Below, piece after piece: positions 8,425 to 63,638 of a DNA stretch of 64,000 bases (position 1 is its first letter; each line of letters begins with the position of its first letter). The stretch covers positions 9,108,188 to 9,172,187 of the forward strand of contig CM055111.1 of assembly GCA_029204225.1 (NCBI GenBank), in the 5' to 3' direction. The notes beneath the pieces were generated by a model. That model searched no databases, had not been told where the DNA came from, and worked only from the letters and a program-made list of their open reading frames with translations. The DNA comes from Diphasiastrum complanatum. Taxonomy: Eukaryota > Streptophyta > Lycopodiopsida > Lycopodiales > Lycopodiaceae. The translations under genes were made by a program, and so were the position numbers.

Positions 8425-8502
8425 AAAGTTTATCAATCATGAAACCAACTTTTTTAAAGGCATTTAGTAAAATTTCTCTCTCTTTAATGAAGATATCTTG
8501 TT

Positions 8503-10814: not shown

Positions 10815-11084
10815 GCAATGGAGCCTAAATTACATCACGCAGGAACTACTTCTCCTACAAGATGATATACCTTCAGCCTTCATATTCATTTCAAATGGTA
10901 AACTCGTAAGTAACTGTAAACACTCTATTCTTTATGTATAGTTTTTTTCAAAAATTTATCGTATAATCTTTATCCTAAATGTAACATACTTTGTGTTGAA
11001 TTTATGCAGATATGTAAAAGACATGAGCTCGAGATCAAATGTAGAGATATTGGTGAAACTATCCAACTGATGGAAGAACACTGA
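10815..11084 (+). pseudogene. Gene R C-terminal exons, copy 3
   Basis: Two exon-like blocks match copy 2 (62,400-62,670). The first contains WSLNYITQELLLLQDD. The second begins after an intron-like TTTATGCAG at 11,009 and ends ETIQLMEEH with TGA at 11,082-11,084. Against copy 2, the 21 codons from HELEIKC to the stop differ at five bases, all third positions and all synonymous, so this frame was translated and selected. How the two blocks splice is unclear, because the obvious donor gives the wrong phase. Upstream exons are absent here. Function unknown. Confidence 0.55.
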
Positions 11085-11315
11085 GATTTACTATTTGAAA
11101 ATACATGTCCATCATCGTTATTGAATATGAAAACAAGAATCTTGTTTTTTTTATCAATCTAGAAGATTGCAATCCAGTATTGTACTATGGACACAGCTTG
11201 ATTATAAGAATGATATCAATAAAAATCCCATAAATGGGCTGTTTACATGTAAGATTGTATCTCCTTTTTTGGATGGTAACATATACATGTTTACATTTGA
11301 AATCCTATTCAGTAA

Positions 11316-11875
11316 GTTTATCTTTATTTTCTATATCAGTATCAGGAGCTATCAAGGCAACAGTCTCTTATCCTGTAATTTTGCCTTCCTCTGTATTAGC
11401 AAGGATTCTATGCCTCTTTGATCGTATATAATAAAATCTGCATCCTGAGCAACCTTAAGGCTGTTAAGGGAGGAGCAGCATTCTTTTTCATGCCCTCAAG
11501 CTCTGGCACAAAATTCACACCATTCTGTACAAAAGTTTTGACCAACTCTTGCCGCAATCTATACACTTCGTCAGGATTGTACAGGTCAAGGGTGAACTAT
11601 CATGACAAACCAGGTGAATGAGCAAATTAGTAACAATGACACTAAATAGATAATAATTAGAATGAAAGCAACAAATGAGCAAAATATTACCTTGTCAATA
11701 TCGACATCGACTTGTAGATTGTACCACTCAAAAAAGAGCTTTGTATTATACAGGACAAACCATGCACAACTAAAAGCATCCTTTTGTTGTATAGGGAGGC
11801 TGCAGATATTGAATGGAAATTATAACATCAAATCCATCAAGGATCATGTTTTTGAAGTCAAAATCGAATAGTTCT
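11316..11875 (-). pseudogene. Ulp1-like protease C-terminal exons, copy 3
   Basis: Minus-strand homologue of 24,640-25,234. One exon (about 11,691-11,800) encodes the protease signature with catalytic-type Gln and Cys (QQKDAFSCAWFVLYNTK), followed by a donor-like GTAATATT. The next exon (about 11,630 downwards) begins FTLDLYNPDEVYRLRQELVK, matching FTLEPYTPNDVYRFRQELIR of copy 1, then decays by frameshift and stops. The N-terminal protease exons and the H3 domain are missing; the copy ends at 11,875 against a copia gag fragment. It converges with gene R, as in copies 1 and 2. Confidence 0.7.
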
Positions 11876-11995: not shown

Positions 11996-12536
11996 GCCAT
12001 GTAGGAGAAAGAAAAATAACTATAAAGTAATTATAACATCATTTTCTAACTTCTTTACGCATATGCCTGCACTACTTTCCATGTAAATGAATGCACCTTA
12101 GTTTAGTTACATCAAACTTCATTGGTGTTTAACCACAGTTAAAATAGAATTTTTCAAAATGCTGAAATATTCCCTCCCAATAGTTGGAAACACTCAAAAA
12201 TTTGAATTAGGAGTGACATTTTTGAAAAAAGCCTACGCCATCTCTATCTCCAGTAGAGTCGTTAGCGCCATCTCCAGCTTTGTTATTGTCATTGTGTTGT
12301 TTATTACTATACTACTGTACTAATGACAAAGCTTTATCATCTTCATGTGGATCTATCACCAGAATATGCTTCGCTCAGGACGAGAAATTCAAAGTAACCC
12401 AAATTGTCAACTTCTGATATGGTCCGATACAGTAAAGTCAGCTAATAATCTATATGTATCATGGTGAAAATGGTCTTTTGGGTTACTGTGAGAATTTGAT
12501 GCTCTATGGGAATGCACATTCAATGCAAAGAATACA
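11996..12536. other. AT-rich spacer
   Basis: No coding frame or repeat recognised. The left end of copy 1 of the multi-gene element should lie here or just to the left, but I found no terminal inverted repeat. Confidence 0.35.
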
Positions 12537-14950
12537 TTGTTTGGAAGAGGAATAAGGAAAATATCAAAGGAGTGCAAAGAAAAATCTACAAAGATGAAAA
12601 CTTGTTTGGATGAAAATGAGATGCTCAAGGAGGAGATCCAAAGGTTGAAATCTTCTTTGCATCATTATACAATTAGTAATGATGAGATAAAAATTGCATT
12701 TCAATCCATGCGTATCTCATATTTGTCTCTTGTTAAAGATATGGATGTGCTCAACAAAAAGGTCCGAAGCAACAAGAGGAAAAGACTGGTAAACAAGGAT
12801 ATATGTGATCTATCATCCATAGGAGGTCATAGAAAAGGCGAATCCGTGCATTCAAGTAAGTTATAGCTTATTTGGTACTGAAAATTGCTTGAGCTTTTTG
12901 ATTTATTCATAATCACTGATTTTGTTATTTATTCATTTATGCTTTCTGTTGATTTGCTTATTACATATTGTTGTGAATACTATGAGTGTCCTAATTTCTA
13001 CTGACATTTTCATGAACATTATATTTGCAATGCAGATCAGCATTGGTTGTTGAAGACCATTTGGCCGATAAGATTTCAATTGGAAATTCACTAGGCTCTA
13101 TCTTGACTTCTAAATCTATGAAATCAATGTTAAATAATAACAAAATGAAAAAGATTAAGGTTTCAGTTACTGATAGCATTATGGATTAAGTTGGAAAAAT
13201 ATTAGACACTACATTGCTTCAGGGGGCATGTGACTTTTCTAGCATCAGTAGAGAAGCATATGCAACAATGTTTAAGATGATAAAGGAGGCATTTGCACAG
13301 GTAAATATTAAAAAGTTTCCAATCCCACGACCATTTCATCTTTAAAAAAAAAAAGACATGTTAAACCATGGTATGCAAACAATAGTTGGTAATCCATCTC
13401 ATATCAATGAAGTATATTGCTCGAAAGGAGAAAGTCTAGCATATAACAATTCCAACAATTTATTTATTGACATTAATCAGTTATTAACATTCATCATAAT
13501 TTTTTATGGTATTACAAATGAGAATGTCAATAACAAGTTGATAGTTGTTCTCAAGTTAGATGAGTCTGAAATTATAAAAGGACAAAAAATGGAAAGAGTC
13601 AATCTCACGATCATGAATGGAGCACTTTCATATTCAAAAGACTCAAAAGGCCTCAATTTCAGTGTTAATCAGAAAATGATATTTGGTGGTTGGCAGCATT
13701 TCAGGTATAGCAGTTCCTTTGCATAATAAATAAGGATAATCATTTGAATATAGATTTCATATCTAAAATCTTCTCTGTGTTAATATTATGAGGCTAATCA
13801 CATTTTTGTATTCTCTTATAGGTGCTGAAAGAGAACCATAACATTTTCTCATGGATATTTAATAGAACATCATATCCGGCTACCATAAAAAATCACATGG
13901 AGGGAGTTCCACTCAATATTCCTGGAATTGGCACTTTCAACATTGAATGGCATTTAGCGGGAGATCTGAGGACATTAAAATGTATGTTCAATGTATCTCA
14001 TGGCGCTAACTCTAGACACCCTTGTTTGTACTGCACCTGTACTACCGATTCCTCTACGAAATGTTCATATCTGTACATTGCATGCGAAGGTGCATATTAT
14101 AGAAAAAATAATATATCTTCACATCTTGTTTATATCCTCTGCAAAAGAAGCTATTTCCAGATTAGAGGATGTGTTGTCCAAAGCAGGCTTACATAACGGC
14201 CACATTAAAATAAAAAGAGATGACAAGTTATCAGGTAAAACAGGAAATATTCCATGCAAGCTGAGCATTAGATGATCTAAAGCTCAAAGATTTTTATCAA
14301 ATTATTCTGGAAAACAACCTAAGGTTCAATACACGGTTTGGAAAGAAATTATTGCAGCAACTCAAGATTTCAAAGAAAAAGATTCTACTCGTATACACAA
14401 AGTAGAAGTTTGGAAAAAGTTAGACAACATGGTGAAATTCTTGAGAAAAGATAAATTTTCAAATACTGATGTTCAAATGATACAGAAAACAACCAATGAA
14501 TTTGTGGATGCAGTTCAGAGTGCATGGGGTGTTGATCTTATAACACATTATATAGTAAGATTTCAGTGTAACACTATTATCGACAAATATGTGCAATTAA
14601 TTTAGATACTTTTGGTACTGATTTATATTTTGTTTCTATGACATGCAACACATATTATGGCATTATGCGACATTCTTTGCAAGAAATAGTGGAAGTCTTA
14701 GCATATGGTCATCGCAAGGAATGGAAAAATCTCATTCGCAAGAGCGGCATTTCATAAAAGTACACAACATGGCGGGACTAGCACAAAAAACAGCTATATA
14801 CTGCAATTTTTTCAATGGTTTTACAGAAGAATCCAAATTCGTCATAATACAAAATCGACGGAAAATTTCAAAAAACATACAAATTTATACAAGTCAGTAG
14901 GCTATAGACACACAATAAAATTTTGTATATTTACAAAGTACAATTCAGCA
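12537..14950 (+). pseudogene. Gene T: transposase-like gene, decayed
   Basis: Exon-like blocks in order: 12,537-12,855, a basic coiled coil (LDENEMLKEEIQRLKSSLHH), ending at a donor GTAAGT; 13,036-13,300 after TTGCAATGCAG, with ISREAYATMFKMIKEAFAQ and one TAA; about 13,358-13,703, with VVLKLDESEIIKGQ; 13,822-14,115 after CTTATAG, with FNIEWHLAGDLRTLK and then RHPCLYCTC; and about 14,647-14,900, with SSQGMEKSH and QHGGTSTKNSYILQFFQWF. The GDLRTLK...GA...HPCLYC and QG(M/V)EK patterns remind me of large uncharacterised transposase-like proteins in animal genomes. That comparison is from memory only. Several frameshifts and stops make it non-functional. It is the likely mobility gene of the element. 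Confidence 0.5.
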
Positions 14951-14954
14951 GTAT

Positions 14955-16131
14955 CTAATCTGCTTCCGATATTTTTTCCAATGAAAGTTGCAACTTAGAA
15001 TCATGCAACAATTTTCTTCTTTCATATGGATCCAATAGCTCATAGTTTTCATGCTTACTCACATCAACGTAAGCAGCATACACTGCAAAATGAGATGATC
15101 TGAGCATGGAATTCACTGGTCCATATCCTAAAATTTTAACCGCAATAGTTTTCTTTACAAAAATTATTTTATGCACCTTATTAAAATTATGTCCTCCAAA
15201 AAAATGAGACAGTGCCTTGATTGCCATAATCATAGTTTCACCATGTTGATGAAATTTTGAATGGCCAACACTTATCTCATTATTCTTGAAGGACTTTAGA
15301 TAGTGCCCGAGTGCATGGTCTCTTGAAAATTCTCCCGCAGAAGAGGCCCTCCTCGATGAATTGTGAAATCATCAAGGAAAATTGTTTCCTGAAATGATAA
15401 AAAACAAGGTAAGCTCCAGTATATAATCTGACATAACAAATCTACTAGTACTTGATAAGAGACAAAAACTTACGCATTCGTCTTTGTCTTCTCTGATTAC
15501 TGTCTCTGGAAACCAAGTTGACTTTGGATTCTACGAAACTCCTCCTCAGAGGGTAGATCATCTTCTTTGTTGCGCATTTCCTCCACAACCATTTTCAAGC
15601 AATCTTTCCCTGAATAAAACTTATCATTATGTACATCGTCAACACCAGGGAGAAGATCATCAGCATCAAATTCAATTATATTCGAAAATTCATTAAGCTC
15701 TTTGCTCAAAATGCAAAGAGTCTCAGCTTCAGTGAAGTCAAAAAGATCCGATATATCCGATATTATCAAAAAGGACTTATTGTTTATAATATAAGTAGGC
15801 AAAGTGATCAAAGATTTATTAGAAGAAGAAAGGGTAGTGGGTTTTCTAGGGCCTATAAAAGTAGCCCTATTTCGAACAGGATCAAAATCAGAACAATCAT
15901 CTAAATGGACACCCGTGTCAATTAAAAAAGTATCTATATCTACAATCTTTGACTTTTCAGACTTTGTACCACTAGAAGAAGCTGCTTCAGAAGTGGAGGG
16001 CACAGAGTCTGAATTGTCAAAAATATTTAAAAAAAGAAAAAAAACAAAAATAGACTGAAAATCAACAAATCTACATTTTTTGTTATGAATTGGGCACTCA
16101 TCTACAGACTTAAAATCATTATGTAACATTG
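14955..16131 (-). pseudogene. Gene X, unknown protein
   Basis: Minus-strand gene with at least two exons. The first (16,131 to about 15,475) starts at MLHNDF and carries an acidic, Ser-rich region (SVPSTSEAASSSGTKSEKSK), then FSNIIEFDADDLLPGVDDVH, and probably ends at a donor GTAAGT. The second begins after TTTATCATTTCAG near 15,390 (ETIFLDDFTIHRGG) and continues in a shifted frame with GHYLKSFKNNEISVGHSKF and AIKALSHFFGGHNFNKVHKI to a TAG at 14,955-14,957. I recognise no domain. The frame is open further upstream to 16,261, but that part overlaps the CACGTG cluster and is probably untranslated. It is convergent with gene T and divergent from H3-Ulp1. Confidence 0.5.
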
Positions 16132-16420
16132 CACGTGTGGAGGACTGGCGAAGGAACACGTGTCGACTTATGATTAGCCAAATTAAATGTGTCGTACCTA
16201 GTATGATTGATCTGACATCTGTCACGTGCGAGAATGACATGCGTCGATTAGGGATTCGCACACGTGTCTCAGCCCACGTGGCCTCATAATTGGCTCACCA
16301 TTGTCCGTACGGACATTCCACGTAATCTAATCATTTGACGACACATGTCTCGGTCATCTTTTCACACGTGCAAAAATTTCGTATATATAAGTCCTTGGAA
16401 TTTTTATTTTTTCTATAAAA
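16132..16420. promoter_or_regulatory. Bidirectional promoter with six G-boxes
   Basis: The spacer between divergent genes X and H3-Ulp1 holds six CACGTG palindromes, at 16,132, 16,157, 16,223, 16,261, 16,275 and 16,365, within 240 bp. CACGTG is the plant G-box, bound by bZIP and bHLH factors. A plus-strand TATA box (TATATATAA, 16,382-16,390) would place transcription start near 16,415, leaving a ~280-nt leader before the H3 ATG. The leader has two similar segments around AAGCGCGCTCTTTCATC and AAGCGCCCTTTCATC. Confidence 0.65.
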
Positions 16421-16696: not shown

Positions 16697-17017
16697 ATGA
16701 TGGCCAAGACCAAATCCACCGCCCGTGCCATCACTACTGTACAGCCATCCCATTCTCGTGGTCCTCCTGGTACTAGCCATAGGCGTGGCAAGAAGCAGGT
16801 CTGGCTGAGGAAGATCAGAAAACTCTAGAGATCAACTGAATTGTTGATCCCTAGAACTCCTTTCGGCTGATCTGTACGGAATGTCACTCTGTCACTTGGG
16901 TTGGATGTTCGTTTTGTCGTGACAGCCATGCAAGCCTTGTAGGGTGCTATAGAAGATTTTTTGTCCCAGTTTTTTGAGGATACTTGTCTTTTGACAGTGC
17001 ATGTTAAGCGTATCACC
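16697..17017 (+). pseudogene. Histone H3-like domain of H3-Ulp1 gene (5' part)
   Basis: The frame starts at a double ATG and gives AKTKSTARA (histone H3 tail: ARTKQTARK), a short Ser/Pro/Gly tail with HRRGKK, then the histone fold: LRKIRKL.RSTELLI, PFG..VRNV, LDVRF, a helix 2 block and FEDTCLLTVHVKRIT, ending at 17,017. Element A interrupts it there; the fold resumes as IMPKDFVILKRI at 23,454. In-frame stops stand at 16,826 (TAG), 16,868 (TGA) and 16,940 (TAG), where H3 has Gln, Arg and Gln. Loop 1 has the length of canonical H3, and the tail is about a dozen residues shorter. The Lys4 position is kept; the Lys9 position is Ala. The frame runs on into the protease at 23,778. The stops and the insertion make this copy inactive. 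Confidence 0.85.
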
Positions 17018-17672
17018 TGTGAAAAATACAGATCCTAAGTGGATCTAAACTCCAAGATCATTGGCTTGAATGCTTGCACTCCAAACTACATAAGCTAGAA
17101 ATTGGCAACACATTCTATGCTACCTAGAATGCAAAGAACTTGATCAAAAAGCATTTATCACAAATGGAAACTTCCATAAACATCAAGTGCGGCCCAAAAT
17201 AGCATTATACAGTCCATAATACATCAGCCTATCACTTTTGGAAAGCACCTAAGATCATACACAATAGCTTGAAGACAATACACACAACAATGCTCTCAAT
17301 GGAGGAAGAAACAATGACAATGATCTATTGATCTCAATGAAGCATACAAAAGGTTTCTCCAACCTGTTCTCCACGACTTCCCTACTATTTATGGATGAGG
17401 AAGATGACTCTCTCTCCTCTCTCTAGAAGGTACTTGACCCTAGATATTTCCTATATAGGAAAAATAGCTAAAAATGGCTTATATGACCAAAATACATCAA
17501 AATGGTCTCATTTTGAAGGGTATGAAGTTTGACACTTCATCATACTGAAAAAATACAGTAAATAAAAACATTGTGGCCTGGTTCACACATGTGAAACTCC
17601 AGAACCAAAACTATTTACAATTTTAGCCAATTTAGGCCTCAAACTAGCTAGGAAATGTTGACAATTTTCACA
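17018..17672 (-). repeat. 3' LTR of copia A
   Basis: 655 bp, starting TGTGAAAAATACAG and ending TTTTCACA on the plus strand. It differs from the right LTR at only about four bases. Confidence 0.95.
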
Positions 17673-17683
17673 CTCCCTCTTCA
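17673..17683 (-). other. Polypurine tract of copia A
   Basis: Minus-strand GAAGAGGGAG lies directly before the 3' LTR, where plus-strand DNA synthesis would be primed. Confidence 0.8.
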
Positions 17684-17796
17684 ACATTGGATGCTAGTTT
17701 CAACATAGTCTTTGAGCACATTCCAAGATTAGATCTATGCATTAAATATAAGTCCTTTCCCAATGGTTTGGTGAAGATATCAGCCACACACTCCTT

Positions 17797-20700
17797 TTAA
17801 GAGACATGTTGAAGCTCCACCTCTTTGGCAATGACTTGATCTCTCACAAAATGGTGAGCAATCTCAATGTGCTTGCTCCTTGCATGAAAAACAGGATTGC
17901 TTGCCAAGCTTTGGGCTGAAAGGTTATCACAAAGTATGATTGGAGTCTTCTCTGGTTCCAGCAAGTGAAGATCCAATAACATCCTCTTGATCCAAAGAAT
18001 CTCCTTGGTGCATGTTGTTAATGCCTTGTACTCGGCTTCGGTGGAAGATAGAGAGATAGTTGGTTGCTTCTTTGATAGCCATGAGACCACTCCATCTCCA
18101 AGATAGATTGCAAAGGCACTTGTTGACTTCCTATCCATTTGATCACCTGCAAAATCTGAATCTGAAAATCCACAAAGGTTAGGTGTAGTACCTCCATACA
18201 AGATGCCAAAATCTCTAGATCCCGAGATGTATCTAAGTACTCTCTTTCCTAGCTTCCAATGAGCCTCACTAGGATCTTGCATAAATTGACTTAGTTTACC
18301 AACCACAAAGCTTAGATCAGGTCTTGTGATGGTTAACCATATAAGAGATCCTATTAGCTTTCTATAGAGAGTAATGTCCTTGAAGGATCTTTCATTACTT
18401 CTTGTAGTTAGCTTTACATTTGATTCCATAGGAGTAGAAACAACTTTACAATCTTCCATATGAAACCTTTTTAGAATAGAGTTAACATACTTTTCTTGAC
18501 ATATGAATGTAGATTTAGAAGTTCTAATAATCTCTATTCCGAAGATATAATGAAGTTTACCAAGATCTTGAATTTCAAACTCTCTTTTGAGTGCCATCTT
18601 GATTTCATCTATATCTAGATTGTTACCACCACTTAAGATAATGTCATCAACATAGATCAAAAGTAAAGTGATATCATTTTCATTCAATCTAAAGTAGAGA
18701 GAATGATCATACTCACTCATAACAAAGTTTTGAGAAAGTAAGAAGGAATTGAGCTTAGCATACCAACTCCTTGGTGCTTGCTTTAGCCCATACAAACTCT
18801 TTTGGAGATAGCACACATGATTAGGCTCATCATGTGAAACATAGCCCTCGGGTTGCTCCATGTAAATATCTTCTTCAAGATCACCATTCAAGAAGGCATT
18901 AGTAACATCCATTTGCCACATATCCCAATCATAAAGAGTTGCAAGAGAGATTAGGATTCGAATAGTTACCATCTTTGCCACGGGTGCAAAGGTCTCATCA
19001 TAGTCAATACCATATTCTTGAGCATACCCCTTTGCCACCAACCTTGCCTTGTACTTGTTGATTGATCCATCTTGATTTGTCTTGATCTTGAAGATCCACT
19101 TACAGCCAATTGCCTTCTTGTCCTTTGGAAGCTTTACCAACCTCCATGTGTTGCTTTTGATGAGTGCTTGATGCTCATGATCCATGGCTTGGATCCATTC
19201 CTTCTTTTGAATTGCTTCACCTACACAAGTTGGTTCATCAAAAGAGGTAAGAAAAGCAAAGTTAGAGTTGTCCACCACTTGCTTTCCTTTTTCATCATAG
19301 GTTAGCCTTGATGGCTTAGCCCTTTGCCTTTGAGTCTTCCTTGAAGTTTGCTTTGGAGTGGCATCTCCATCTTCATCCAAGACATCTTGCACATCATGAT
19401 GATTAGTAGGCACATCAACATCAACATCAACAACATTGGAAACATTCTCTTCATGAAAGATGACATCCCTACTTATGACAACTTTCTTTGTAGAAGGAAT
19501 GTACACTTTGTAAGCCTTGCTTACTTCACTATAGCCAACAAACACACCCTTCTTTGATGAAGGATCTTCTTTAGTTCTATCATCAAGTGTGATATTGACA
19601 AAACATGTACATCCAAAGATCCTACAATGCTTGACACTCGGCCTTCTACCATAAAGAACCTCATGAGGAGTTTTACCATCCAAGGAAGCACTTGTCCATC
19701 TATTACATAGATAGTTAGCACATGCTAAAGCTTCCCCCCAAAAAGACTTAGCAAGATTAGCATGTAGTCTCATTGCCTTGGCACATTCACAAAGGGTTCT
19801 ATTCTTCCTCTCGGCCACTCCATTCTGTTGTGGAGTCCTAGGACTAGACATCTCCCTCTTAATCCCATGTGCTATACAAAAGTCTTTGAACCTATTTGAG
19901 GTGTATTCCCCTCCATTATCAGATCTTAAGCATTTGATCTTTGTATTGAATTGGTTTTCCATTTCATTCTTGAACTTGACAAATGCAGCAAACACTTCAT
20001 CCTTACTTTTAAGAAGATAGATCCAAGTATACCTACTAAAGTCATCAATGAAAGTTGCATACATCTTTGCCCCACCATTGCTAGTTGTACTAGAAGAATG
20101 AATATCAGAGTGCACAAGTTGAAAAGCTTCTTTAGATCTAGAAGTAGATCTAGAATAAGCAAGTCTATGAGATTTGGACAAGGCACAATGTTCACAAACA
20201 CTATTATTTGCAACAAGACTTTTAGGGAGACCAAGAACAAGCTCTTTCTTTGCCATTACCTCCAAAGATTTGAAGTTGGGATGGCCCAACCTCTTGTGCC
20301 AAACTTCTTGGTTTGTCAATTGCTCCCTAGCCATACATCCTTCATGATTAGAGATCACACATGCATCAAGCTTGAAAAGTTTACCATGCCTCCTACCTTG
20401 AGCAATCAAGGATCCACATTTACTTATCAAACATGCATCTCCAATGAACTCCACATCAAGTCCTTTGTCAATCATTTGACTTACACTAAGCAAATTCTTA
20501 GTGATTGAAGGAATGTACAAAACATTTTCAAGATTTGCTTTCCTATTTGTTGAAAGGGAAATAGGAATAGTGCCTATGCCTTTGATGTCACATTGACCAT
20601 CATTTGCAGTGTAGATGATGTTACCTTCTCCCTCATAAGACAATAAGGATGTAAAGTATTCCTTATGTCTTGTCATGTGAGATGAGGCTCCACTATCAAT

Positions 20701-21621
20701 CCACCAAGGATCATTATCATCTATGTTGGCTAACAAACTTGAAGTCATAACAAGTGATTCACATGTGTTATGTTCTTCCTCATCTATTGTAAGATTTCCT
20801 TGCCTCTCTCCTTGCTCTCTTTTCTTCTTATAACATTCATTTGCAAAATGACCTTTTATCCCACAATAAAAGCACTTGAACTTTGACTTATTGTTCTTAG
20901 TAGAAGAGTAAGAGGAAGAGTGATCATCATGATCAAAGTTACCACCTTTGGACCATTTCCCTTTGCCTTTACCTTTGCCCTTGAATTTGCCTTTTGTGAA
21001 GAAAGCCTCTTCACCTCCACCTTGCAAGGATGCACCATCAAGCTTTGATTGCAACCTATGTTCTTCAGCCAATAAGATTTCTTGCAAGTCAACCACACTT
21101 GGCAAGACTCTTTGAATGGCAAAACTTTGCACAAGGTTAGCATGTTCATTTAGCAAACCATTCAACATAACTTGGACTATTTCACCATCTTTTATGTTCT
21201 CATCAATGCATGCTAAATCATCACTTAGGGACTTAACTCTCAAGATAAATGCATGAGCACTTTCACCCTCTCTTTGCCTACTAGAAAATATTTGTCTCCT
21301 TAGGGTCAATACCCTAGATGTGGACTTTGATTCAAAGAGCTTCTTTAAGGCATTCCATGCCTCACTTGCACTTTGACACTTTCCAACTTCCTTGAGAAGT
21401 TCATTTGTAACATTCATTTTAATGATATGAAGAGCCCTTTTGGCCTTCTTATCAAACCTTTGTTGCTCTTGAAGTGTGAGAGGTCTCTCTTCAATTTCTG
21501 CAACTATGTCCATGAGTTCATTCAACTCAAGTAAGGACTCCATCCTCACTTTCCAAGTAGAGTAGTTTGATGAACTCAACCTTTCACTAGACTCTAGCAT
21601 GATCCCACCATTGGAAGCCAT
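17797..21621 (-). CDS. Copia A Gag-Pol polyprotein
   Basis: 1,274 residues in one frame. Domains in order: Gag (UBN2-like, residues ~10-195); Lys/Gly-rich linker; zinc knuckle CFYCGIKGHFANEC (250-263); aspartic protease WWIDSGASSHMT (~306-317); pre-integrase WHKRLGHPNF with CEHC; integrase with VHSDIHS, LRSDNGGEY and QQNGVAERKN supplying the D,D,E residues; reverse transcriptase with CKWIFKIK, MDVTNAFLNGDLEE and YVDDIILSG; and RNase H with SSTEAEYKALT. The frame stops at TAA 17,797-17,799, after ELQHVS. The usual copia end (ADIFTKPL) follows in the same frame just beyond it. One nonsense change therefore cut off ~30 residues, or the element ends slightly short. Otherwise it looks complete. 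The gag resembles that of element D. Confidence 0.95.
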   Translation of the reverse strand: MASNGGIMLESSERLSSSNYSTWKVRMESLLELNELMDIVAEIEERPLTLQEQQRFDKKAKRALHIIKMNVTNELLKEVGKCQSASEAWNALKKLFESKSTSRVLTLRRQIFSSRQREGESAHAFILRVKSLSDDLACIDENIKDGEIVQVMLNGLLNEHANLVQSFAIQRVLPSVVDLQEILLAEEHRLQSKLDGASLQGGGEEAFFTKGKFKGKGKGKGKWSKGGNFDHDDHSSSYSSTKNNKSKFKCFYCGIKGHFANECYKKKREQGERQGNLTIDEEEHNTCESLVMTSSLLANIDDNDPWWIDSGASSHMTRHKEYFTSLLSYEGEGNIIYTANDGQCDIKGIGTIPISLSTNRKANLENVLYIPSITKNLLSVSQMIDKGLDVEFIGDACLISKCGSLIAQGRRHGKLFKLDACVISNHEGCMAREQLTNQEVWHKRLGHPNFKSLEVMAKKELVLGLPKSLVANNSVCEHCALSKSHRLAYSRSTSRSKEAFQLVHSDIHSSSTTSNGGAKMYATFIDDFSRYTWIYLLKSKDEVFAAFVKFKNEMENQFNTKIKCLRSDNGGEYTSNRFKDFCIAHGIKREMSSPRTPQQNGVAERKNRTLCECAKAMRLHANLAKSFWGEALACANYLCNRWTSASLDGKTPHEVLYGRRPSVKHCRIFGCTCFVNITLDDRTKEDPSSKKGVFVGYSEVSKAYKVYIPSTKKVVISRDVIFHEENVSNVVDVDVDVPTNHHDVQDVLDEDGDATPKQTSRKTQRQRAKPSRLTYDEKGKQVVDNSNFAFLTSFDEPTCVGEAIQKKEWIQAMDHEHQALIKSNTWRLVKLPKDKKAIGCKWIFKIKTNQDGSINKYKARLVAKGYAQEYGIDYDETFAPVAKMVTIRILISLATLYDWDMWQMDVTNAFLNGDLEEDIYMEQPEGYVSHDEPNHVCYLQKSLYGLKQAPRSWYAKLNSFLLSQNFVMSEYDHSLYFRLNENDITLLLIYVDDIILSGGNNLDIDEIKMALKREFEIQDLGKLHYIFGIEIIRTSKSTFICQEKYVNSILKRFHMEDCKVVSTPMESNVKLTTRSNERSFKDITLYRKLIGSLIWLTITRPDLSFVVGKLSQFMQDPSEAHWKLGKRVLRYISGSRDFGILYGGTTPNLCGFSDSDFAGDQMDRKSTSAFAIYLGDGVVSWLSKKQPTISLSSTEAEYKALTTCTKEILWIKRMLLDLHLLEPEKTPIILCDNLSAQSLASNPVFHARSKHIEIAHHFVRDQVIAKEVELQHVS

Positions 21622-22780
21622 GATTCTAATGTTTCTTCAACTTTTAGGTTCTGTCCTAAAGCACTTAGCACTCACTTTTCTCTCAACAAATGATAGATAA
21701 AGAGATCTATGAAGATTTAGGACCCTAAAACACTTCTATCTTGAACCTAGATGGTTTCCAAGCATAGAAAGGAAGATTGAAACACATGCAACACTTTGCA
21801 CACACTAAGAATGGATTACAAAATCAAACCAACCTGAACACACTCTTGCTTAAGCTCTCAAACTTTCCAGCAAGTGACCAAATCAAGTTATGGTGTGAAG
21901 AGTTACTTGCATTCTTAGAAAATACCCAAAACTAGGATGCCAAGATTACCTAGTAATGAACAAACTTGATCAACATATGATCAACACACTAAGATATTGA
22001 TTCAACCTGTAAAACCACATGTAAACCACACTTCTAAAAGTTTATAAACTCCAGCAAGTGATAAATACAAGATTTAGAGGTGAATGAATGAGCACACTTA
22101 GTGAATCACAAGACTAGCTTCACTATCTTGTCAAATCTTGGTGTTTAGATGTAGATCTAAGATCACTTCACATGAGAATGTTCCTCAACCTGTTAAGAAC
22201 CTGAAAACACACTTGCATAATGGTTAACACCTTCCAGCAAATGCTCCAATCAAATTACATAAGGAGAGTTACTTACATGCTCAACAAAGTACACCAAAAT
22301 TTATGCCAAAATTGATGACAATCTTTACAATATGCTCTTCACAATGGAGCTTACAATATGTTCACCCAAAAAAGGGGATCTTTCATCCAAATGGGAGCTT
22401 TGCTCAGCCTTTAGGAGAATTACAACTCACTCAAAAGAGCATTTGTCATCCACTTAAGGAGAAGTTTCATCCACTTAAGGAGAGTGTTCATCCAAGAATG
22501 GAGATTGTCAACAATAGGATTGAAAAGAACATTGTTAGTATTGAATATGCACAAGCCTCACAATCACAAATGATTAGGTGTTATGATCTGATCCAAAATA
22601 GTTTCTTTTCAGCCTCTGATCTTCAATAGACCTGAAATATGCTTTTGATCCACAAGTTCAACTCACAAAACAAAGGTTAGTAAGATTTGATCAACAAAGC
22701 AATGCAAAATCATGCTAGAACTTGATCAAACATCCAAATATCACCAAAAATGGAATACTTACTGTAAATAGAAGCCAACC

Positions 22781-22793
22781 AGCTCTGATACCA
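22781..22793 (-). other. Primer binding site of copia A
   Basis: The minus strand reads TGGTATCAGAGCT directly after the 5' LTR. This complements the 3' end of plant initiator methionine tRNA, the usual primer of plant copia elements. Confidence 0.93.
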
Positions 22794-23448
22794 TGTGAAA
22801 AATACAGATCCTAAGTGGATCTAAACTCCAAGATCATTGGCTTGAATGCTTGCACTCCAAACTACATAAGCTAGGAATTGGCAACACATTCTATGCTACC
22901 TAGAATGCAAAGAACTTGATCAAAAAGCATTTATCACAAATGGAAACTTCCATAAACATCAAGTGCGGCCCAAAATAGCATTATACAGTCCATAATACAT
23001 CAGCCTATCACTTTTGGAAAGCACCTAAGATCATACACAATAGCTTGAAGACAATACACACAACAATGCTCTCAATGGAGGAAGAAACAATGACAATGAT
23101 CTATTGATCTCAATGAAGCATACAAAAGGTTTCTCCAACCTGTTCTCCACGACTTCCCTACTATTTATGGATGAGGAAGATGACTCTCTCTCCTCTCTCT
23201 AGAAGGTACTTGACCCTAGATATTTCCTATATAGGAAAAATAGCTAAAAATGGCTTATATGACCAAAATACATCAAAATGGTCTCATTTTGAAGGGTATG
23301 AAGTTTGACACTTCATCATACTGAAAAAATACAGTAAATAAAAACATTGTGGCCTGGTTCACACGTGTGAAACTCCAGAACCGAAACTATTTACAATTTT
23401 AGCCAATTTAGGCCTCAAACTAGCTAGAAAATGTTGACAATTTTCACA
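22794..23448 (-). repeat. 5' LTR of copia A
   Basis: 655 bp, with the same ends and length as the left LTR. In minus-strand sense it precedes the primer binding site. Confidence 0.95.
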
Positions 23449-23453
23449 TCACC

Positions 23454-25234
23454 ATCATGCCAAAGGATTTTGTCATTCTCAAAAGGATTTGAAACAGATA
23501 TTCTGGTCTGCGTATTGATAATGCCAGCACCTCCAGAGACCTGCCTCTGGATAGAACCAACGTGCCTACTACCTCTAGGAGGAAGAGAAAGCAGACTGTC
23601 CTCAAGAAGGCTAGATCTTGAAGGCTAGTTGCTTCCCTTCCTCCTAAACGTATCTCGGCCAAGAGACCCCGTGTCTTCCTAAGCTCTGAGTCAGATGCTG
23701 AAGAATCTTACTCAGATTGAGAATCTAGTCCTCCTCCTGTTATTAGTCCATCTCCTCAACAGGTTTCATCATTAAAAGTGTTGATTACCCAAGAGGAGCT
23801 AGACAGAATAACAGAGAAATTTGTAAATATTCCTTCCACTTCTGTTTCTGCTCCTATACATAATGTTTTTGTGAGAATTCCATACGATCCAAGCCAAGTT
23901 TTTTTTTATTCTGACCATTATAATCAATACGAGACCTACCTAGCTAACAAAATTGATCTTCTTGACAACTTTTTTGATTTTTTTTTTCCAGATACACGTA
24001 GAAGCTTTAGATTAGGTCCCAAATTTTGTGTCGAGCTAAAAGATAAGACCTCAAAAATTTCAGATGCAATAGTAGAGGCTGGAGTTTCTTTTTTGTTGAA
24101 TAGTATTAGTTTTGATTCCCATGGTATAGTTTTTGTAGTTAGTCCATTTTTCATGGGAGCGGTAAAGGCAAAAGAAGCCAATTTTGAGAAGGCTGTCTAT
24201 TTTATCGAGTGCAGTCCTATGGCAAAATTTTATTTGATTCCATATGAAAATAAGTAAGAATCGCTCTTTTGTTTTTGTTGCTTTAATCTGAACTGTTGCA
24301 TGCCTCATTGCTTTAATAAGAACGGAAGTTTTTCATGAATATGAATTTAACAATATTTGTATCTTGGTTGTTGCAGTCGGCATTGGAGCCTAAACATTCT
24401 TTTTGTAAAGATAAATAAGGAGGGAGTATCAAATTTTCTATGTGTAAAATTAAACTCAGCTGCAATACACATAGAGAATTTGATTTCTACTTCATGATGT
24501 CGTTCGAGAAATATCGACAACGGCAACTTCAATTGGAGATATAATTATTGAATCTCTCAAGGTATATTCAATTTATCTATGATAGGCATGTATTTCTTTT
24601 TTAACTCAAATGTATCGTCATAGCATAAATAAAATTTCTATCATAATATTACTAATTTTCGTTCTATATATGGAGTGTGTACAACAAAATGGCGCTTTTA
24701 GTTGTGCATGGTTTGTCTTGTACAATACGAAGTTATTTTTTGAATGGTATAATTTACAAACGGATGTAGATAATGAAAAGGTAATATTCTATTCATTTGT
24801 AGTTCATTTCATTCTGATTCATATTTTATTACTATCATTGTTTGTACATTGCTGATTCTCGTGTTTTGTGATTACAGTTTACTCTTGAGCCGTATACTCC
24901 TAATGATGTATATAGATTTCGGCAAGAGTTGATCAGAACCTTTGTCCAATATAGTGTAAGCATTGCACTTGCAATCGAGGGCCCTCAAAAGGAAGATACT
25001 CTTGCCTTAACAATCTTTCAGGTTGTTCAGGATGCAGATCTTATTTTATATGATAAAAAAGGAATAAAAGTCCTTCCTAATACAGAGGAAGGCAATTTTG
25101 TAGTAGATATTCCTCTTGCCTTATAAGACATTGAGGCCCTTCCCGAAACAGAGGAGGCCAAGGTTATAGAAGGAGTTGTTGCTTTATCAGTTCCTAATAC
25201 TGATATAGAAAATATAGAAAAATTGATTGAATAG
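23454..25234 (+). pseudogene. H3-Ulp1 gene, 3' part: end of H3 fold plus Ulp1-like protease
   Basis: Continues the frame interrupted at 17,017. IMPKDFVILKRI ends the H3 fold. A basic linker follows (TTSRRKRKQTVLKK, PPKRISAKRPR: likely nuclear localisation), then an acidic Ser patch. From 23,778 comes a C48/Ulp1-like protease: the N-terminal lobe (ITQEELDRITEKFVNI ... SDAIVEAGVSFLLNSI ... FYLIPYEN) up to a splice donor at 24,254; after TTGCAG at 24,376, the His block RHWSLNILFVKI (24,381) and LNSAAIHIENL, where the usual Asp is Asn; then QQNGAFSCAWFVLYNTK with the candidate Cys at 24,703-24,705, exon end 24,780; and a last exon from 24,878 (FTLEPYTPNDVYRFRQEL) to TAG 25,232-25,234. Stops at 23,490, 23,619, 23,718 and near 25,124, and a probable frameshift near 24,490. 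Ulp1 enzymes cleave SUMO or related conjugates; here the target is unknown. Confidence 0.8.
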
Positions 25235-25786
25235 AGATCTATTTGTAAATAGTGAGACATAAAAAAAAAGATACAATCATTTTACTTGTAAACAACCCGT
25301 TTATGGGTTTTTTTTATTGATATCACAATAGATTCTTACAATCAACTTGTGTCCATAGTCTAATAATGGAATGCAATTTTTCTATAATGATAAAAAGACA
25401 TTGGCATGTAATGTTGGATGGATATAAATCTGCAAGAGAAAAATGATCAGATTGGCAAGTTTATTATTAGACATTTATGAATGACAAAAATCAAAGTATC
25501 AAAAATATCAATACTCACAGTTGTTCTTTTTGTGATCTTGACGATTGAATCCTTGTACATTTATCTCTGAATGCATATATACATGTTGAACTAGAATTTC
25601 AGAAAGATTTTCCTCCTGATGGTGTTCTGAAATCCAGAATTCTGGCCTTCCAATAAGATCGAAATGATAGTTTTGGCCTTTTCCTTTTTTGAAATGCTCC
25701 TCTTGATGATGGATGCATCAAACCCAAGAGTTTTTTGAATATTTTCTTGGCACCCATAATCCATTATCATCTGTCCCTTCACAAGT
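25235..25786 (-). pseudogene. Gene R, truncated, copy 1
   Basis: Minus-strand homologue of 61,350-62,906. From 25,786 the frame reads DDNGLWVPRKYSKNSWV, a TGA, then FDLIGRPEFWISEHHQEEN and HVYMHSEINVQGFNRQDHKK up to a donor GTGAGT. This frame is better preserved than in copy 2. Near 25,405 about 965 bp present in copy 2 (61,724-62,688) is missing, removing all downstream exons. The remainder is the shared 3' region between the convergent genes. The 5' end is lost at about 25,787, next to copia element B. The protein is unknown to me. Confidence 0.55.
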
Positions 25787-26103
25787 GAAGAGTGAAGTTT
25801 CCTCAAGGTAAAGTAACAGTTCAAAAACAAAGAAAATCCCTATTTTTGGGTCCTTTGCCCGTTTTGACCCAAACGAAAGGCTGTAACCTCCAAAAGAAGG
25901 GCACTCGGACTGTACTTGCAAGTACGGTACAACAAAACAGAGTGATTGTAGTGGAGAAAGTGTTCGGAGTGTGCCAAAAGTGATTTCACCATTCCACTGG
26001 GCACGTATTTGGGAGTTGACGACTTAGTGCATTTCGGAAGGCGACGCCGATTTGGCTTTCAAATTGGTGTTAGCCTACAACAGAACTTTCAAGCAGTTTT
26101 GCG

Positions 26104-26804
26104 ATGGCAAACATGGGAGAGTCCATTTTGAGTGAAAGTAGTAAATTGGACGGGATTTCCAACTATGCAGTGTGGAAATTCAAAATGAAAAACATACTGA
26201 TGGAGAAAGATGTGTGGGAAGTCGTCACAGGTGATGAGAGAAGGCCGCCAAATGAAGCGGATATCAAAGTGTTCGACAAAAAGATGAGGAATGCTTTGAC
26301 TTTCATCAACTTGTCAGTGAAGGATCACATCATTATCCACATTTGTGATGCTGTTACACCCAGACAGGCATGGGATGTGCTAAAGGAGCAATTTGAGACG
26401 TCAAATCCGTCTAGAATCGTGTTTCTAAAGTCAAAGCTGAATAGTGTCCGCATGGAGCAAGGAGAGCACATTCAAACATACATGACCAGAATCAAGACAA
26501 TGAGGGATGAACTGCATTCTATTGGTGAGCGCATACGTGATGTGCAGCTAGTACACAATGCATTGTGTGACATTGTACAACCCTATCAGATGTTTGTGAG
26601 TGGAATAGCATCAAGAGAAAGATTACCAACCTTTAACGAGCTCATAGGAATCTTGATGCAGGAAGAGCAACGACGAGAAATGGTGAAAGCTAGATGTCAA
26701 AATACTGAAGATCAAACACTTGCAACACACCAAAAACGAGGCAAGGGCAAGAGCAAGAAGAAGTCTAAGCAGCAATTTGCCAAGTCTCAGGAGGATGAGG
26801 GATC
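26104..26804 (+). pseudogene. Copia B gag, 5' part
   Basis: An open frame from ATG 26,104 gives a copia Gag (UBN2-like: LDGISNYAVWKFKMKNILM, later SRIVFLKSKLNSVRMEQGE and EHIQTYMTRIKTMRDELHS), then a Lys-rich stretch (KRGKGKSKKKSKQQ) ending QEDEG at 26,804. A Gag-only LTR element is inserted there. The frame resumes exactly at 31,813 with SHKTKKKDKCFHCGKKGHW, so the two halves form one gag. I found no clear 5' LTR or primer site between 25,787 and 26,103. Confidence 0.85.
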
Positions 26805-27262
26805 TGTTGTGGGTATTTCCGACACAATAATGAACAAGTGGGTCCCACCACTTGAAATATTGTTGGCCAAGTTTTACCTAGTGGGCCCCGCCATAGTGCA
26901 GTGTACAGTTAGAATAATAAGTGTGAGGGCACTGGCGTGCTGCATGTGTAAGCCCAACCCAATGAGCACGCAAAATGGTTAGGCAGAACTTGAATAAAAG
27001 ACTTGGAGCCTTAGTTAGAATAAATTAATTTAAAAGCCCAAAGTCAAGTTCATAAGGTTCTAACTTAAAAGGGAATCTCTCAAACTCACATGAATCATGT
27101 GAGTTTGGCCCTTTTCCTAATGAACCATTAGATTGAAGTTCAATTAGTTTGAAGGGCTAGGATGCCACTGTAAATAGGCCAATGAGAGCCAAGATGGCCC
27201 TCTCTCCTCAACTATATAAGGAAGCCATTTCCCATTGTACATATCTTCATCTTTTCTCAATA

Positions 27263-27336
<74 letters not shown>

Positions 27337-27427
27337 AGGTTGATTGGTGCATAGCTATGGGTAGGCACTCGAGCCCCTATAGCCCCAACCATCCTTGGTG
27401 AACTCTCTTCTCCCTTTCTCTCTCTCT

Positions 27428-27497
<70 letters not shown>

Positions 27498-27588
27498 AGG
27501 TTGATTGGTGCATAGCTATGGGTAGGCACTCGAGCCCCTATAGCCCCAACCATCCTTGGTGAACTCTCTTCTCCCTTTCTCTCTCTCT

Positions 27589-27664
<76 letters not shown>

Positions 27665-27808
27665 CTCCTCTCTCCTCTCTCTAAACTCTCTCTCCTCTCT
27701 CCTCTCTCTCATCACTCCTTCCTCTCTATCTCCCTTCTCTCTCTCTTTCTATGCAGGTGTGCACGGGCGGCTCCTAGTGAACGGACCCCTATACTACGAC
27801 GGACTACA
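26805..27808 (+). repeat. 5' LTR of the Gag-only element
   Basis: About 1,004 bp, against 729 bp for the 3' LTR. The extra length comes from three long CT microsatellites (about 27,268-27,335, 27,429-27,494, 27,591-27,661) and a duplication of the ~85-bp segment beginning CCAAGGTTGATTGGTGCATA. The start and end match the 3' LTR. Confidence 0.9.
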
Positions 27809-27830
27809 ATTGGCGCCATTGCCTGGGAGC
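27809..27830 (+). other. Primer binding site of the Gag-only element
   Basis: ATTGGCGCCATTGCCTGGGA directly follows the 5' LTR. It resembles the TGGCGCCGTTGCCGGGG site of plant gypsy elements, usually assigned to an Asp tRNA. The assignment is from memory. Confidence 0.65.
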
Positions 27831-28059
27831 GCCAATGTTGCTCACCACATAGCTGCTTTTTTTTCTCCACTCTTCTCTACTTCCTCCCCTCACCTCCTCT
27901 TTTTTCCCATTCTTTAAAATCTTCCAAGTCCATTACAAAAAATCCAAGCCCTCAAGGGATTAATTTTGTTTTTTTAAGCTATATATTGTGTCAGATTTTT
28001 TCAAATTGCTCAGTGTTTTTTATTGCCGTAGTCTCAGTTTTGATATGGATCAAGCCTCC

Positions 28060-28980: not shown

Positions 28981-29052
28981 TTCATTTTTCAAAACTTTTG
29001 ACGATCTAGTTACCTTCGCTGGTTATTTTTACCGTAGTCTCTTCTTTTATAA

Positions 29053-29335
29053 AACAACAAACTTTTGTAGAGGCCTCTGAAGTTCCATCTGAGTCTCACT
29101 AAGACCAGAACACAGAGATATCTGCAAGAGTTTGTTGTCAAAAAAAAAAAAAAAACCCACAAACTTTTGTAGAGGCCTCTGAAGTTCCATCTTAGTCTCA
29201 CTAAGACTAGAACACAGAGAAATCTGCAAGAGTTTGTTGTCAAAAAAAAAAATCAACAAACTTTTGTAGAGGCCTTTGAAGTCCCATCTTAGTCTCACTA
29301 AGACCAGGACACAGGGAAATCTGAAGAGTTTATTT
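29053..29335. repeat. Three tandem copies of a ~100-bp block
   Basis: The block starts CAAACTTTTGTAGAGGCCT and ends in AGAGTTTGTTGTC plus an A-run. It occurs three times in a row, with A-runs of differing length between copies. It lies in the leader of the Gag-only element. Confidence 0.9.
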
Positions 29336-30893: not shown

Positions 30894-31083
30894 AAATTTG
30901 GCAAGTCCAAGTTCTTGCTGATTGCCATCATCCAATAAAGCCTCAGGTTTTACGTAAGCGAATTTTATCCACGCTTTTCCTAAAGCACCCATGTCCCAGC
31001 AATAAAAGAACCGACAACAGTGCCCCTTCACGACAGTTGCAGCCTAGTGCCGAGGGACCGGCACTACTTTGGGCCATGGACCC

Positions 31084-61303: not shown

Positions 61304-62670
61304 TGGCGCCATCAAGGAAGCCGTGCTCCTCAATCGACTCTGTGCTTCTATTCAATGAGACAAATGATAATGGATTATGGGTGCCAAGAAAATATTAAAA
61401 AACTCTTGGATTTTGATGCATCCATCATCAAGAGGAGCATTTCAAAAAAGGAAAAAGTCAAAACTATCATTTCGATCTTATTGGAAGGCCAGAATTTTGG
61501 ATTTCAGAACATCATCAAGAGAAAAATCTATTTCTGAAATTCTAATCCAACATGTATATATGCATTCAGAGATAAATGTGCAAGGATTCAACCGTCAGGA
61601 TCACAAAAAAAAAACAACTGTGAGTATTAATATTTTTGATACTTTGATTTTTGTCATTTCTTAAATATCTAATAGTAAACTTGCCAATCTGATCATTTTT
61701 CTCTTGCAGATTTATATCCATCCGACATAAATGAATGGGAACCGAGTGGATCTTTAGCAAGTGTGTTAGATGTTATTCACACTGATATTGGACAGCTGCC
61801 ATATCGAGGTAGAGCTGCAAAAGATCTAGCTAATCGTGGAATCTTTTTTTATGAATCAATGTACATTCCTAATACAAAAGGAAATTTTGGACAGATAGTA
61901 CCAATTCCATTACCTAGCTTTGAAAGTAATGAATGGATTGCACCAGATGCTACAGTTTCAGAATCATTTTGTTGCAAGATATATAATGATGTAAAAAATT
62001 CATTAAAAATGAGCACCAGATAAAAAACAGTCAGCTTGAGTTGGTTTATTTCCTTGAATATATTTGTGGATTTCTTTTGAAGTGTTAATGTACACAAAAT
62101 CCCAACGATGTTTGTATGCAAAAATTTATCAGATAGTTTATTATATGAACTTATGGATGAAGGCTGGGACAAAAGATCAGATGGAGAAATAAAATGCAGA
62201 ATTAAAATGTCTTTCATGTGCTTCCATTATCAAATTGAAAAACAAATGTTGAGCTTATGCTTCCATTATCAAAGATGGAAAAAAAATAAAGGTAAATGGG
62301 TGCCACTCGATCAAGACTTGGAAGCCAGTGGACATTCAAAACGATAAAATATTGAAATTATATACAATGATGCTGTTTTTGACATGTGTTGAGGTGGAAG
62401 AAGATTGGAGTCTAAACTATATCCGGCGGGAACTATTGCTCCTACAAGATGATGCACTTTCAGACTTCAGATTCATTTTCAATGGTAAATCATAAGTAAC
62501 TATAAACACTCGATCTTTTATGAATAGTTTCAATCAAAACTTTCTAATACAAACTCTGTACTAATTCTAACTAGCTTTGTATTAGTTTTATGCAGGTACG
62601 TAAAAGACATGAGCTCGAGATCAAATGCAGAGATATTGGCGAAACAATCCAACTTATGGAAGAACATTGA
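61304..62670 (+). pseudogene. Gene R, copy 2 (longest copy)
   Basis: ATG at 61,304 (MAPSRKPCSSIDSVLLFNET) continues with DNGLWVPRKY. A one-base deletion and a small insertion relative to copy 1 shift the frame before NVQGFNRQDHKK and a donor near 61,620. After TTGCAG (~61,710): DINEWEPSGSLASVLDVIHT, DIGQLPYRGRAAKDLANRG, GQIVPIPLPSFESNEWIAP to TAA at 62,023. Further exon-like blocks: FVCKNLSDSLLYELMDEGWD (62,108), KKNKGKWVPLDQDLEA, WSLNYIRRELLLLQDD (62,410) and a last exon ending ETIQLMEEH, TGA 62,668-62,670. I recognise no domain. It converges with the Ulp1 3' end, as in copies 1 and 3. Confidence 0.55.
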
Positions 62671-62687
62671 GATTCACTATCAGCAAA

Positions 62688-62906
62688 TACATGCCAATGT
62701 CTTTTTATCATTATAGAAAAATTGCATTCCATTATTAGATTATGGACACAAGCTGATTGTAAGAATCTATTGTGATATCAATTAAAAAAATCCATAAACG
62801 GCTTGTTTACAAGTAAAATGATTGTAATTTTTTTTTTATGTCTCTCTATTTACAAATAGATCTCTATTCAATCAATTTTTCTATATTTTCTATATCAGTA
62901 TTAGGA
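62688..62906 (-). pseudogene. H3-Ulp1 gene 3' end, copy 2
   Basis: Homologous to 25,180-25,405 read on the minus strand: the last Ulp1 codons (PNTDIENIEKLIE and stop at about 62,872) and the 3' region shared with gene R. The copy breaks off at about 62,906. Confidence 0.6.
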
Positions 62907-63638
62907 ACCCCCTTCATCTTTTTCACACCTTCATAAAAAATGCGACATAGTGGCCAGAATGCCTTGGAATCAATTTTAGGGCCACCTTCGTCTCTTTTGA
63001 ATTTTTTTTGCCTTCACTCTAGAGGCACTTTCAAAATCTACATACCTTCAGTCTAAGGGCACCTTCAAGTTTTTCGGGTTTTTGCCAACAATGGCAAATT
63101 TGGGGTAATGTTTGGCTGGTGAAACCTACTACAGGGCAGTACAATGAGGCATAATTACTTCTAAATCATTATTACTTACTTCTGGCAAGGTAATAGAGTG
63201 TTTGGAAGTGGTAAATTCAGTATGGGTACAAATAGCAAAATTGTGTGGCGAAAGCTAGTATTGGTGATGGAAGTGCAGTTTGGAGGCATGACTACTCATC
63301 ATTGGAGACAATTTGGAGAGGGAAAGCAATCACAAGTGAGAGGTAGGCACGGTATGCCAGTTAGAGGTGAAAAATTCTTGCGATCAAGTTCAACTCTTGG
63401 AGTTCGAACCAACCAACGTCAAGTGGCATGATAGTCAGATTGGGGACGAGTCAATTGGTCGAGAGTGCAATAGACTCTCTATATGAGCATTGTTTTTACA
63501 TAATATTTTGTGTGCCAAACCTGGTGGTTTGATGGTGTGCTTGAGTGTGAGTCAAGTACATGATAGCAGGGATATGCATAACATCTTTTGGACACTCAAG
63601 ACGCTATTGCAATATATTTCTTTATTCCTATCACATTT
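62907..63638. other. No gene recognised
   Basis: 62,907-63,090 has words resembling copia LTR sequence near 55,000 (GGCGAAGGTGCCT-like) and ends in CCAACA, so it may be an LTR scrap. The rest is non-coding interior of a small plus-strand LTR element. Confidence 0.35.

Follow-up and report, generated by a model that had tools for sequence, protein, structure and literature searches.

A Histone H3-Ulp1 Protease Fusion Gene in a Repeated Element of Diphasiastrum complanatum

The Fusion Gene in the Window

The window analysed here is a 64,000-nucleotide stretch of the genome of the lycophyte Diphasiastrum complanatum (GenBank assembly GCA_029204225.1, contig CM055111.1, positions 9,108,188 to 9,172,187), which corresponds to C20:9108188-9172187 in the 1.745-Gb assembly of 5176 contigs used for the genome-wide searches. 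It contains a broken gene in which a histone H3-like domain is followed by a protease domain of the Ulp1/C48 type, and remnants of three further genes, T, U and V, lie around it (Table 1). H3 and Ulp1 are joined in one genuine gene, which belongs to a repeated element and is free of stops in part of the copies, and the feature in the window is almost certainly a decayed copy of such an element, a four-gene DNA transposon with inverted ends starting with CATTAG.

The H3 part of the window gene is interrupted by a copia retrotransposon, whose long terminal repeats (LTRs; 17018-17672 and 22794-23448) are 99.4% identical; it has a 1279-aa open reading frame on the minus strand (17797-21636) and is flanked on both sides by TCACC. 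The initial annotation held that removal of copia and of one TCACC leaves a single frame running from the H3 tail and fold through a linker into the protease. Indeed, the frame picks up after copia at TIMPKDF and goes on through the linker into the N-terminal half (N-half) of the protease; however, it contains in-frame stops, three in the H3 stretch and four in the 269 codons of the post-insert frame, one of them beyond the splice donor, while the HWSL exon has an additional stop and apparently a frame change too. Likewise, the exons carrying HWSL and QQNGAFSC were found together with their splice sites, but the gene has three GT-AG introns, and not two as had been annotated. Shuffled versions of the post-insert frame have a mean of 17.2 stops, and none of 2000 had four or fewer. 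The openness of the H3 stretch is ordinary, as few stops or fewer being found in 448 of 2000 shuffles; the case for this part therefore rests on homology, and its match with Pfam Histone (PF00125), with stops read as X, reaches E = 1.7e-18 and 67.5 bits over a cut-off of 26.4. The window protease, with its exons joined and stops again read as X, remains under the Pfam C48 cut-off (PF02902; 13.2 versus 20.7 bits, E = 0.081); thus, the Pfam comparison suggested for the window recovered the histone and not the protease, which does pass the cut-off in two proteins of class A, the related family described below. Exon 3 of the window and the class A protease are 67% identical over 33 aa.

Other Copies of the Fusion in the Genome

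The family to which the window belongs was searched with the N-half of the window protease, and the best 150 of 5398 first-look candidates were scored; their identity ranges from 74 to 100%, the latter value being the window itself. One of these copies, L047, was fetched, and it contains H3, linker and protease N-half in a single open frame with no stop and no insert, reading MMARDKSTAHA...TIMPKDF...linker...protease N-half. It shares with the window 84 of 106 aligned amino acids in the H3 piece and 203 of 254 in the post-insert piece. This single open frame, which has no stop after H3, argues against H3 and protease being separate genes.

Class A is a second, related family of the same design, which was first met in a genome search with a histone model. 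Its copies were collected with the exon 1 protein of L026, itself a copy, as the query (329 residues, without the catalytic exons). The best 122 of 9842 candidates all span H3 and the protease N-half, with identities of 84-100% and with alignments starting at query residue 10 or before and ending at residue 313 or beyond; exon 1 is stop-free in 22 of them and contains a stop in the other 100. Since exon 1 does not include the catalytic residues, whole genes were examined in nine fetched class A copies. Two of these, L018 and L025, retain every one of the six GT/AG sites and four exons without a stop, coding for 470 aa each; the two proteins match Pfam Histone over its cut-off (1e-27 and 9e-27) and Peptidase_C48 with 1e-10 and 5e-10 (42.2 and 39.9 bits, the cut-off being 20.7). 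The introns retain GT/AG in most copies read, and the best copies of both families are spread over many contigs. A whole-genome search with PF02902 gave three matches with E<=0.001 among the 150 scored of 520 candidates, a low number which may be due to the splitting of the protease among exons. The proposed architecture, a repeated multi-gene element in which an H3 variant continues in frame into a C48 protease, thus holds, and the joining of the two domains is not confined to the window: it is found in L047, in the best 122 class A copies and in the two 470-aa proteins.

When the class A fusion was compared with database proteins, 19 proteins were retrieved, all containing a histone domain and none a C48 domain. 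Another database protein that was looked at, P0035, has 391 aa, with an H3 that contains K9 and a longer loop 1, and a 240-aa extension ending with IIILPY, which resembles the end of exon 1 of the element. It was considered as a relative of the fusion and rejected, the similarity of the extension not being significant (hhalign probability 0.7%, z 0.0 to 1.6 in eight comparisons).

Table 1. Features of the window. Positions are those of the window; L047 is a window-family copy from elsewhere in the genome.
Feature	Position	Strand	Evidence
H3-like tail, H3 fold except its end; three stops in frame	16697..17017	+	PF00125 match; identity with L047
TCACC, 5' member of the target-site duplication of copia	17013..17017	+	
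copia LTR retrotransposon within the H3 part	17018..23448	-	Not in L047
Second TCACC, remainder of the H3 fold, linker (basic/acidic) and C48 N-half, up to the donor of intron 1	23449..24253	+	
Exon 2, HWSL (catalytic His), decayed	24377..24561	+	Splice sites; alignment of a class A relative with Ulp1/SENP chains
Exon 3, QQNGAFSCAW (Gln and catalytic Cys)	24676..24780	+	Splice sites; class A protease match
Exon 4, C-terminal extension ending at a stop	24878..25234	+	Shared with D. complanatum O6H91_Y440400
Gene T, decayed, transposase-like (KLDE, WHLAGDLRTLKCM, C-x-Y-C motifs)	12492..14900	+	tblastn with class A T
Gene U, divergent from the H3 gene	14955..16294	-	tblastn with class A U
First part of gene V, convergent to the fusion gene	25411..25858	-	tblastn with class A V1
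Second copy, truncated: final fusion-gene exons and some of V	10819..11822	-	DNA identity; class A C48 match
Third copy, truncated and reversed: fusion-gene end and V	61312..62908	- (V + at 61312-62164)	V1 and V2 matches

The Protease Domain

A class A protease query, assembled with exons mixed from several copies, was aligned with chains of Ulp1, SENP2 and other C48 proteases, with weak E-values from 0.012 to 0.74. The His, Gln and Cys residues are in register with those of the C48 chains, where the alignments cover them. By eye, the block corresponding to LDS reads KMNS in class A, including L018 and L025, and KLNS in the window.

The Histone Domain and Its Tail

K4 was found in all of the 24 H3 tails that were read, from nine class A and 13 class B copies (class B being a third family, see below), the window and L047, whereas K9 was found in none, position 9 being occupied by D, G or A; these tails are drawn from three families and therefore count as three observations and not as 24. 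The ARKS motif is absent from the class A exon 1 frames and from any frame of the 1500 nt following the 13 class B starts; it was seen in six of eight canonical H3 loci, the other two being unmatched by the search string.

The nearest Protein Data Bank (PDB) match of the window H3 piece, which is decayed, is CENP-A, while the stop-free class A protein is closest to chains of canonical H3. The tree built on the H3 fold, which includes an Arabidopsis CENH3 row, gives no clear place to the transposon H3 sequences (group support 38/20). A CENH3 identity, weighed because of the CENP-A match of the window, is made less likely by the class A match.

The Transposon and Its Other Genes

Comparison of class A copies revealed shared ends, CATTAGAGGAGTTCTCAATATC, which are inverted, start with CATTAG and are common to copies lying in differing flanking DNA. 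Genome-wide, 2146 matches to these ends (1049+1097, with <=2 mismatches) were found, compared to 0+1 for a reversed-pattern control. The elements delimited by the ends are 9305, 9451 and 9016 bp long, the first of them containing the open L025 gene, and L042 is an internally deleted copy of 2592 bp. The gene order in class A is T(+), U(-), H3-Ulp1(+), V(-). Among six class A copies read at both ends, one has matching 3-bp flanks (TCA) and five are without clear duplication; no duplication was seen in the one class B pair read.

T is the best candidate for the transposase of the element. It has 25 relatives among public proteins, including one of the fern Adiantum nelumboides. A WHxA-x-DLK block and a KLDE motif are common to them, with a single residue varying among the filled rows. 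The Asp of KLDE is present in 18 of 18 filled rows and that of WHLAGDLK in 22 of 22, and the region of the candidate Glu is absent from most rows of the T alignment A1. T matched no transposase family in Pfam, nor did a comparison with PDB sequences return anything. A viral origin was considered and rejected: when viral contigs were scanned once using the alignment of T, 51 pattern matches resulted, of which none was confirmed. Gene V of a class A element (E25, on G000:C2; positions 8495-8887 within the element, minus strand) has a weak match to a TnsA-like endonuclease (PF08722) with E = 0.003, which is below the cut-off.

Homologues of all four class A genes are present in the window, in the same order as in class A. 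The class A T matches at 13031-13705 (52.7% over 226 aa) and 13822-14073 (64.3% over 84 aa), the two U pieces match at 15967-15527 (U2; 35%, 7e-20) and 15338-14997 (U3; 48%, 3e-32), and V1 at 25858-25511 (34%, 1e-13). The inverted ends of the element were looked for around the window copy and were not found. Both truncated copies are related to the 3' part of the fusion gene, the second having 75% DNA identity with 24653-25095 and the third 96% with 25190-25410. Further LTR-element remnants, with 161-bp repeats next to CT-rich stretches, occupy 26074-31812.

One database protein, O6H91_Y440400, was found with the window protease gene (56% identity over 19% of the query). The final part of its gene model starts at the acceptor of the last intron of the element, the annotation joining the last exon of the element to another gene.

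Of the class A end matches listed, the first 100 are all mismatch-free and all on C1, a contig of 101.6 Mb, and 28 of them fall within 1.7 Mb (G000:C1:64973859-66677496); their one-strand runs perhaps represent a segmental array rather than independent insertions. A same-strand run of class B end matches, perhaps also a segmental array, was noted at G000:C1:48608620-49758129.

Class B, a Family Without a Detected Protease

The class B ends, CATTAGGGCCC..., have 1998 matches in the genome (1002+996, <=2 mismatches), compared to 0+0 for the control. The H3 gene of this family (L009-L023) begins with MARTKQTAR or a near variant, followed by a long Q-/P-rich stretch and by an H3 fold, which runs to the stop codon in most copies; the L009 protein matches Pfam Histone with 6.7e-29. 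With tblastn at E<=1e-3, T was detected in seven of the 13 fetched copies, V in eight and U, weakly, in six, several of the fetched stretches possibly ending short of these genes. Class B T is 42-45% identical to class A T over 132 aa. The gene order, V, H3, U, T, is the same as in class A, with the H3 and U orientations opposite.

Selection and Decay

The ratio of nonsynonymous to synonymous substitution rates (dN/dS), given here without a significance test, was calculated for seven of the nine class A copies, L027 and L040 being dropped for incomplete exon 1, in 10 pairs between and 11 pairs within two subfamilies. Between the subfamilies the values are 0.11 for the H3 fold, 0.25 for the tail, 0.57 for the linker and 0.62 for the protease N-half; the H3 fold thus looks constrained. 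The corresponding dS is 0.56 in the H3 fold and 0.076 in the protease N-half, and the low value of the latter suggests exchange between the subfamilies. Within subfamilies, dN/dS is 0.89 for the exon, 0.51 for the H3 fold and 0.81 for the protease N-half, as might be anticipated for copies that have decayed since they inserted. In the comparison of the window with L047, the two pieces give 0.67 and 0.76.

The stops in the best 122 class A copies comprise 162 TAG, 17 TAA and 13 TGA. Singleton transitions per site in these copies are 0.51 at CG, 0.34 at CHG, 0.17 at CHH and 0.12 at A/T. Decay follows CG and CHG sites, as would be expected if both contexts were methylated.

Proposed Function and Alternative Explanations

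The best explanation as a whole, a four-gene transposon in which the H3-Ulp1 fusion counters silencing, falls somewhat short of being probable, and for the fusion product taken by itself a role as anti-silencing factor is proposed tentatively, from its sequence features. A K9-less H3, a Ulp1 domain and decay at CG and CHG sites fit such a role. CHG methylation by CMT3 depends on H3K9me2, H3K18 being read as well (PMC9256654, in the part available). The H3 part would enter, or dock on, the chromatin of the element, where a tail without K9 and ARKS would be unable to bear the H3K9me2 mark needed by CMT3-type CHG methylation, while the tethered protease might strip SUMO, or a SUMO relative, from silencing proteins. 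The initial annotation had likewise suggested that the fusion could bring the protease to chromatin or reverse SUMO-dependent silencing. The element would then act similarly to the plant VANC/KIU anti-silencing genes, except that a histone would stand where these have their DNA-binding part. Ulp1 domains are described in VANC-type KIU genes of Arabidopsis VANDAL elements (PMC13317346, in part), and VANC causes loss of methylation at the transposable elements that it targets (PMC5735166, in part). A more specific form of the idea, a selfish nucleosome in which a K4-bearing, K9-less H3 would be placed on the element's own copies together with a SUMO-stripping protease, blocking H3K9me2-CHG silencing, is rather unlikely.

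Several observations weigh against an anti-silencing fusion protein. Seven of the nine fetched class A copies do not contain a whole open gene: L026 is without the later exons, an early stop occurs in L027 and L040, and the frame breaks in or after the HWSL exon in L016, L024, L028 and L041. No Asp is found at the usual catalytic position in the Ulp1/SENP alignments, and cleavage is therefore not assured; an active site with Asn instead of Asp is possible, as is a C48 domain that serves for binding only. Papain uses Asn in its active site. No C48 domain was detected in the 13 fetched class B loci, though H3 is present, so that class B would rely on the K9-less H3 alone. P0035, the link of which to the elements is unproven, keeps K9. 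The protease N-half is weakly constrained, as its between-subfamily dN/dS indicates, and within subfamilies the ratio exceeds 1 in the tail (2.04) and in the linker (1.63). Finally, the copies bear methylation-type decay, and any defence is therefore incomplete.

Alternatively, the H3 variant could be a targeting device that guides proteins of the element, or its integration complex, to certain chromatin, for example centromeric or H3.3 chromatin, with a protease that serves transposition and not silencing. The CENP-A match of the window H3 and the cluster of class A end matches in 1.7 Mb of C1 would agree with this; however, the one-strand runs of the cluster are more like a segmental array, the best copies of both families lie on many contigs, and the H3 tree gives no clear grouping with CENH3. 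The closeness of the open class A protein to canonical H3 lowers this alternative further, and it is considered improbable. Viral histones coat viral DNA, and the H3 could similarly coat extrachromosomal or newly excised transposon DNA, the protease processing proteins of the element, for which T, U and V could serve as substrates. Retention of H3 in class B, with no protease detected, is in line with such a coat, but the scanned pieces of T, U and V gave no histone match, and there was no sign of a replicating or virion-forming element; this is quite improbable.

Equally doubtful is a passive capture, by which H3 and Ulp1 pieces would have been amplified as functionless passengers. Gene capture is described as common in plant transposons (PMC13317346, in the part available), and the stops in exon 1 of 100 of the best 122 class A copies are in line with such a capture. 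Conversely, the H3-fold dN/dS of 0.11 between class A subfamilies, the presence of the H3 gene in three families with related T and V, and the GT/AG sites kept in most copies read argue against it. As for a chance adjacency or an assembly error joining a host H3 to a protease remnant, the window copy by itself, broken and with an H3 stretch that is not unusually open, would allow it; yet the fusion recurs in the best 122 class A copies, in L047 and in the two whole 470-aa frames, which rules out a chance frame or an assembly artefact and leaves this explanation with practically no weight.

Comparison with Known Systems

Transposons with anti-silencing functions are known, and they use sequence-specific proteins such as VANC; giant viruses are an example of mobile DNA encoding a core histone. 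To our knowledge, no transposon encodes one. The initial annotation knew of no described family with an H3-Ulp1 fusion, and none was found in the literature searched; the same holds for any transposon encoding a histone, in a search that took in few papers of subscription journals and no bioRxiv preprints. If the product enters nucleosomes, it would represent a K9-less H3 of natural origin that a selfish element has spread, and a natural experiment on whether the removal of K9 from nucleosomes suffices to break H3K9me2-CHG silencing. The finding would also bear on the role of Ulp1 domains in plant transposons, given that the protease of this element is attached to a protein of chromatin.

The H3 fold and the tail K4 are shared by the transposon H3 with host H3 and CENH3. 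Unlike host H3, it has neither K9 nor ARKS, the RPGTVAL segment is replaced, LIPRxPF is found instead of LIRKLPF, and a protease is present at the C-terminus. Compared to the histones of giant viruses, a single H3 is present here, and in two families it is joined to a protease; among the element proteins scanned, no viral gene was recognised above cut-off. The CATTAG ends resemble those of CACTA (EnSpm) elements. Identical 3-bp flanks were, as said, found in one of six class A copies, the other five being without clear duplication, and T gave no match with the CACTA transposase model in Pfam.

The KIU (Kaonashi) genes, which carry a Ulp1 domain, belong to VANDAL/non-TIR Mutator-like elements (TIR, terminal inverted repeat), likewise multigene plant DNA transposons (PMC13317346, in part), and their VANC relatives are anti-silencing factors (PMC5735166, in part). 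The Ulp1 partner in the present element is instead a core histone H3 and not VANC, the element has CATTAG TIRs, and no Mutator domain was recognised in T by Pfam, in spite of the Ulp1 domain of the element. Ginger1, a DNA transposon with a Ulp1 or OTU domain, also shares Ulp1; there, however, this domain belongs to a Gypsy-integrase-like transposase, the TIRs are 40-270 bp long with CCGG/CCGT duplications, and a histone is unmentioned in the available part of the source (PMC2836005). Thus, a DNA transposon with TIRs and a possible anti-silencing gene is a known arrangement, while the use of a histone in this place is new as far as has been seen.

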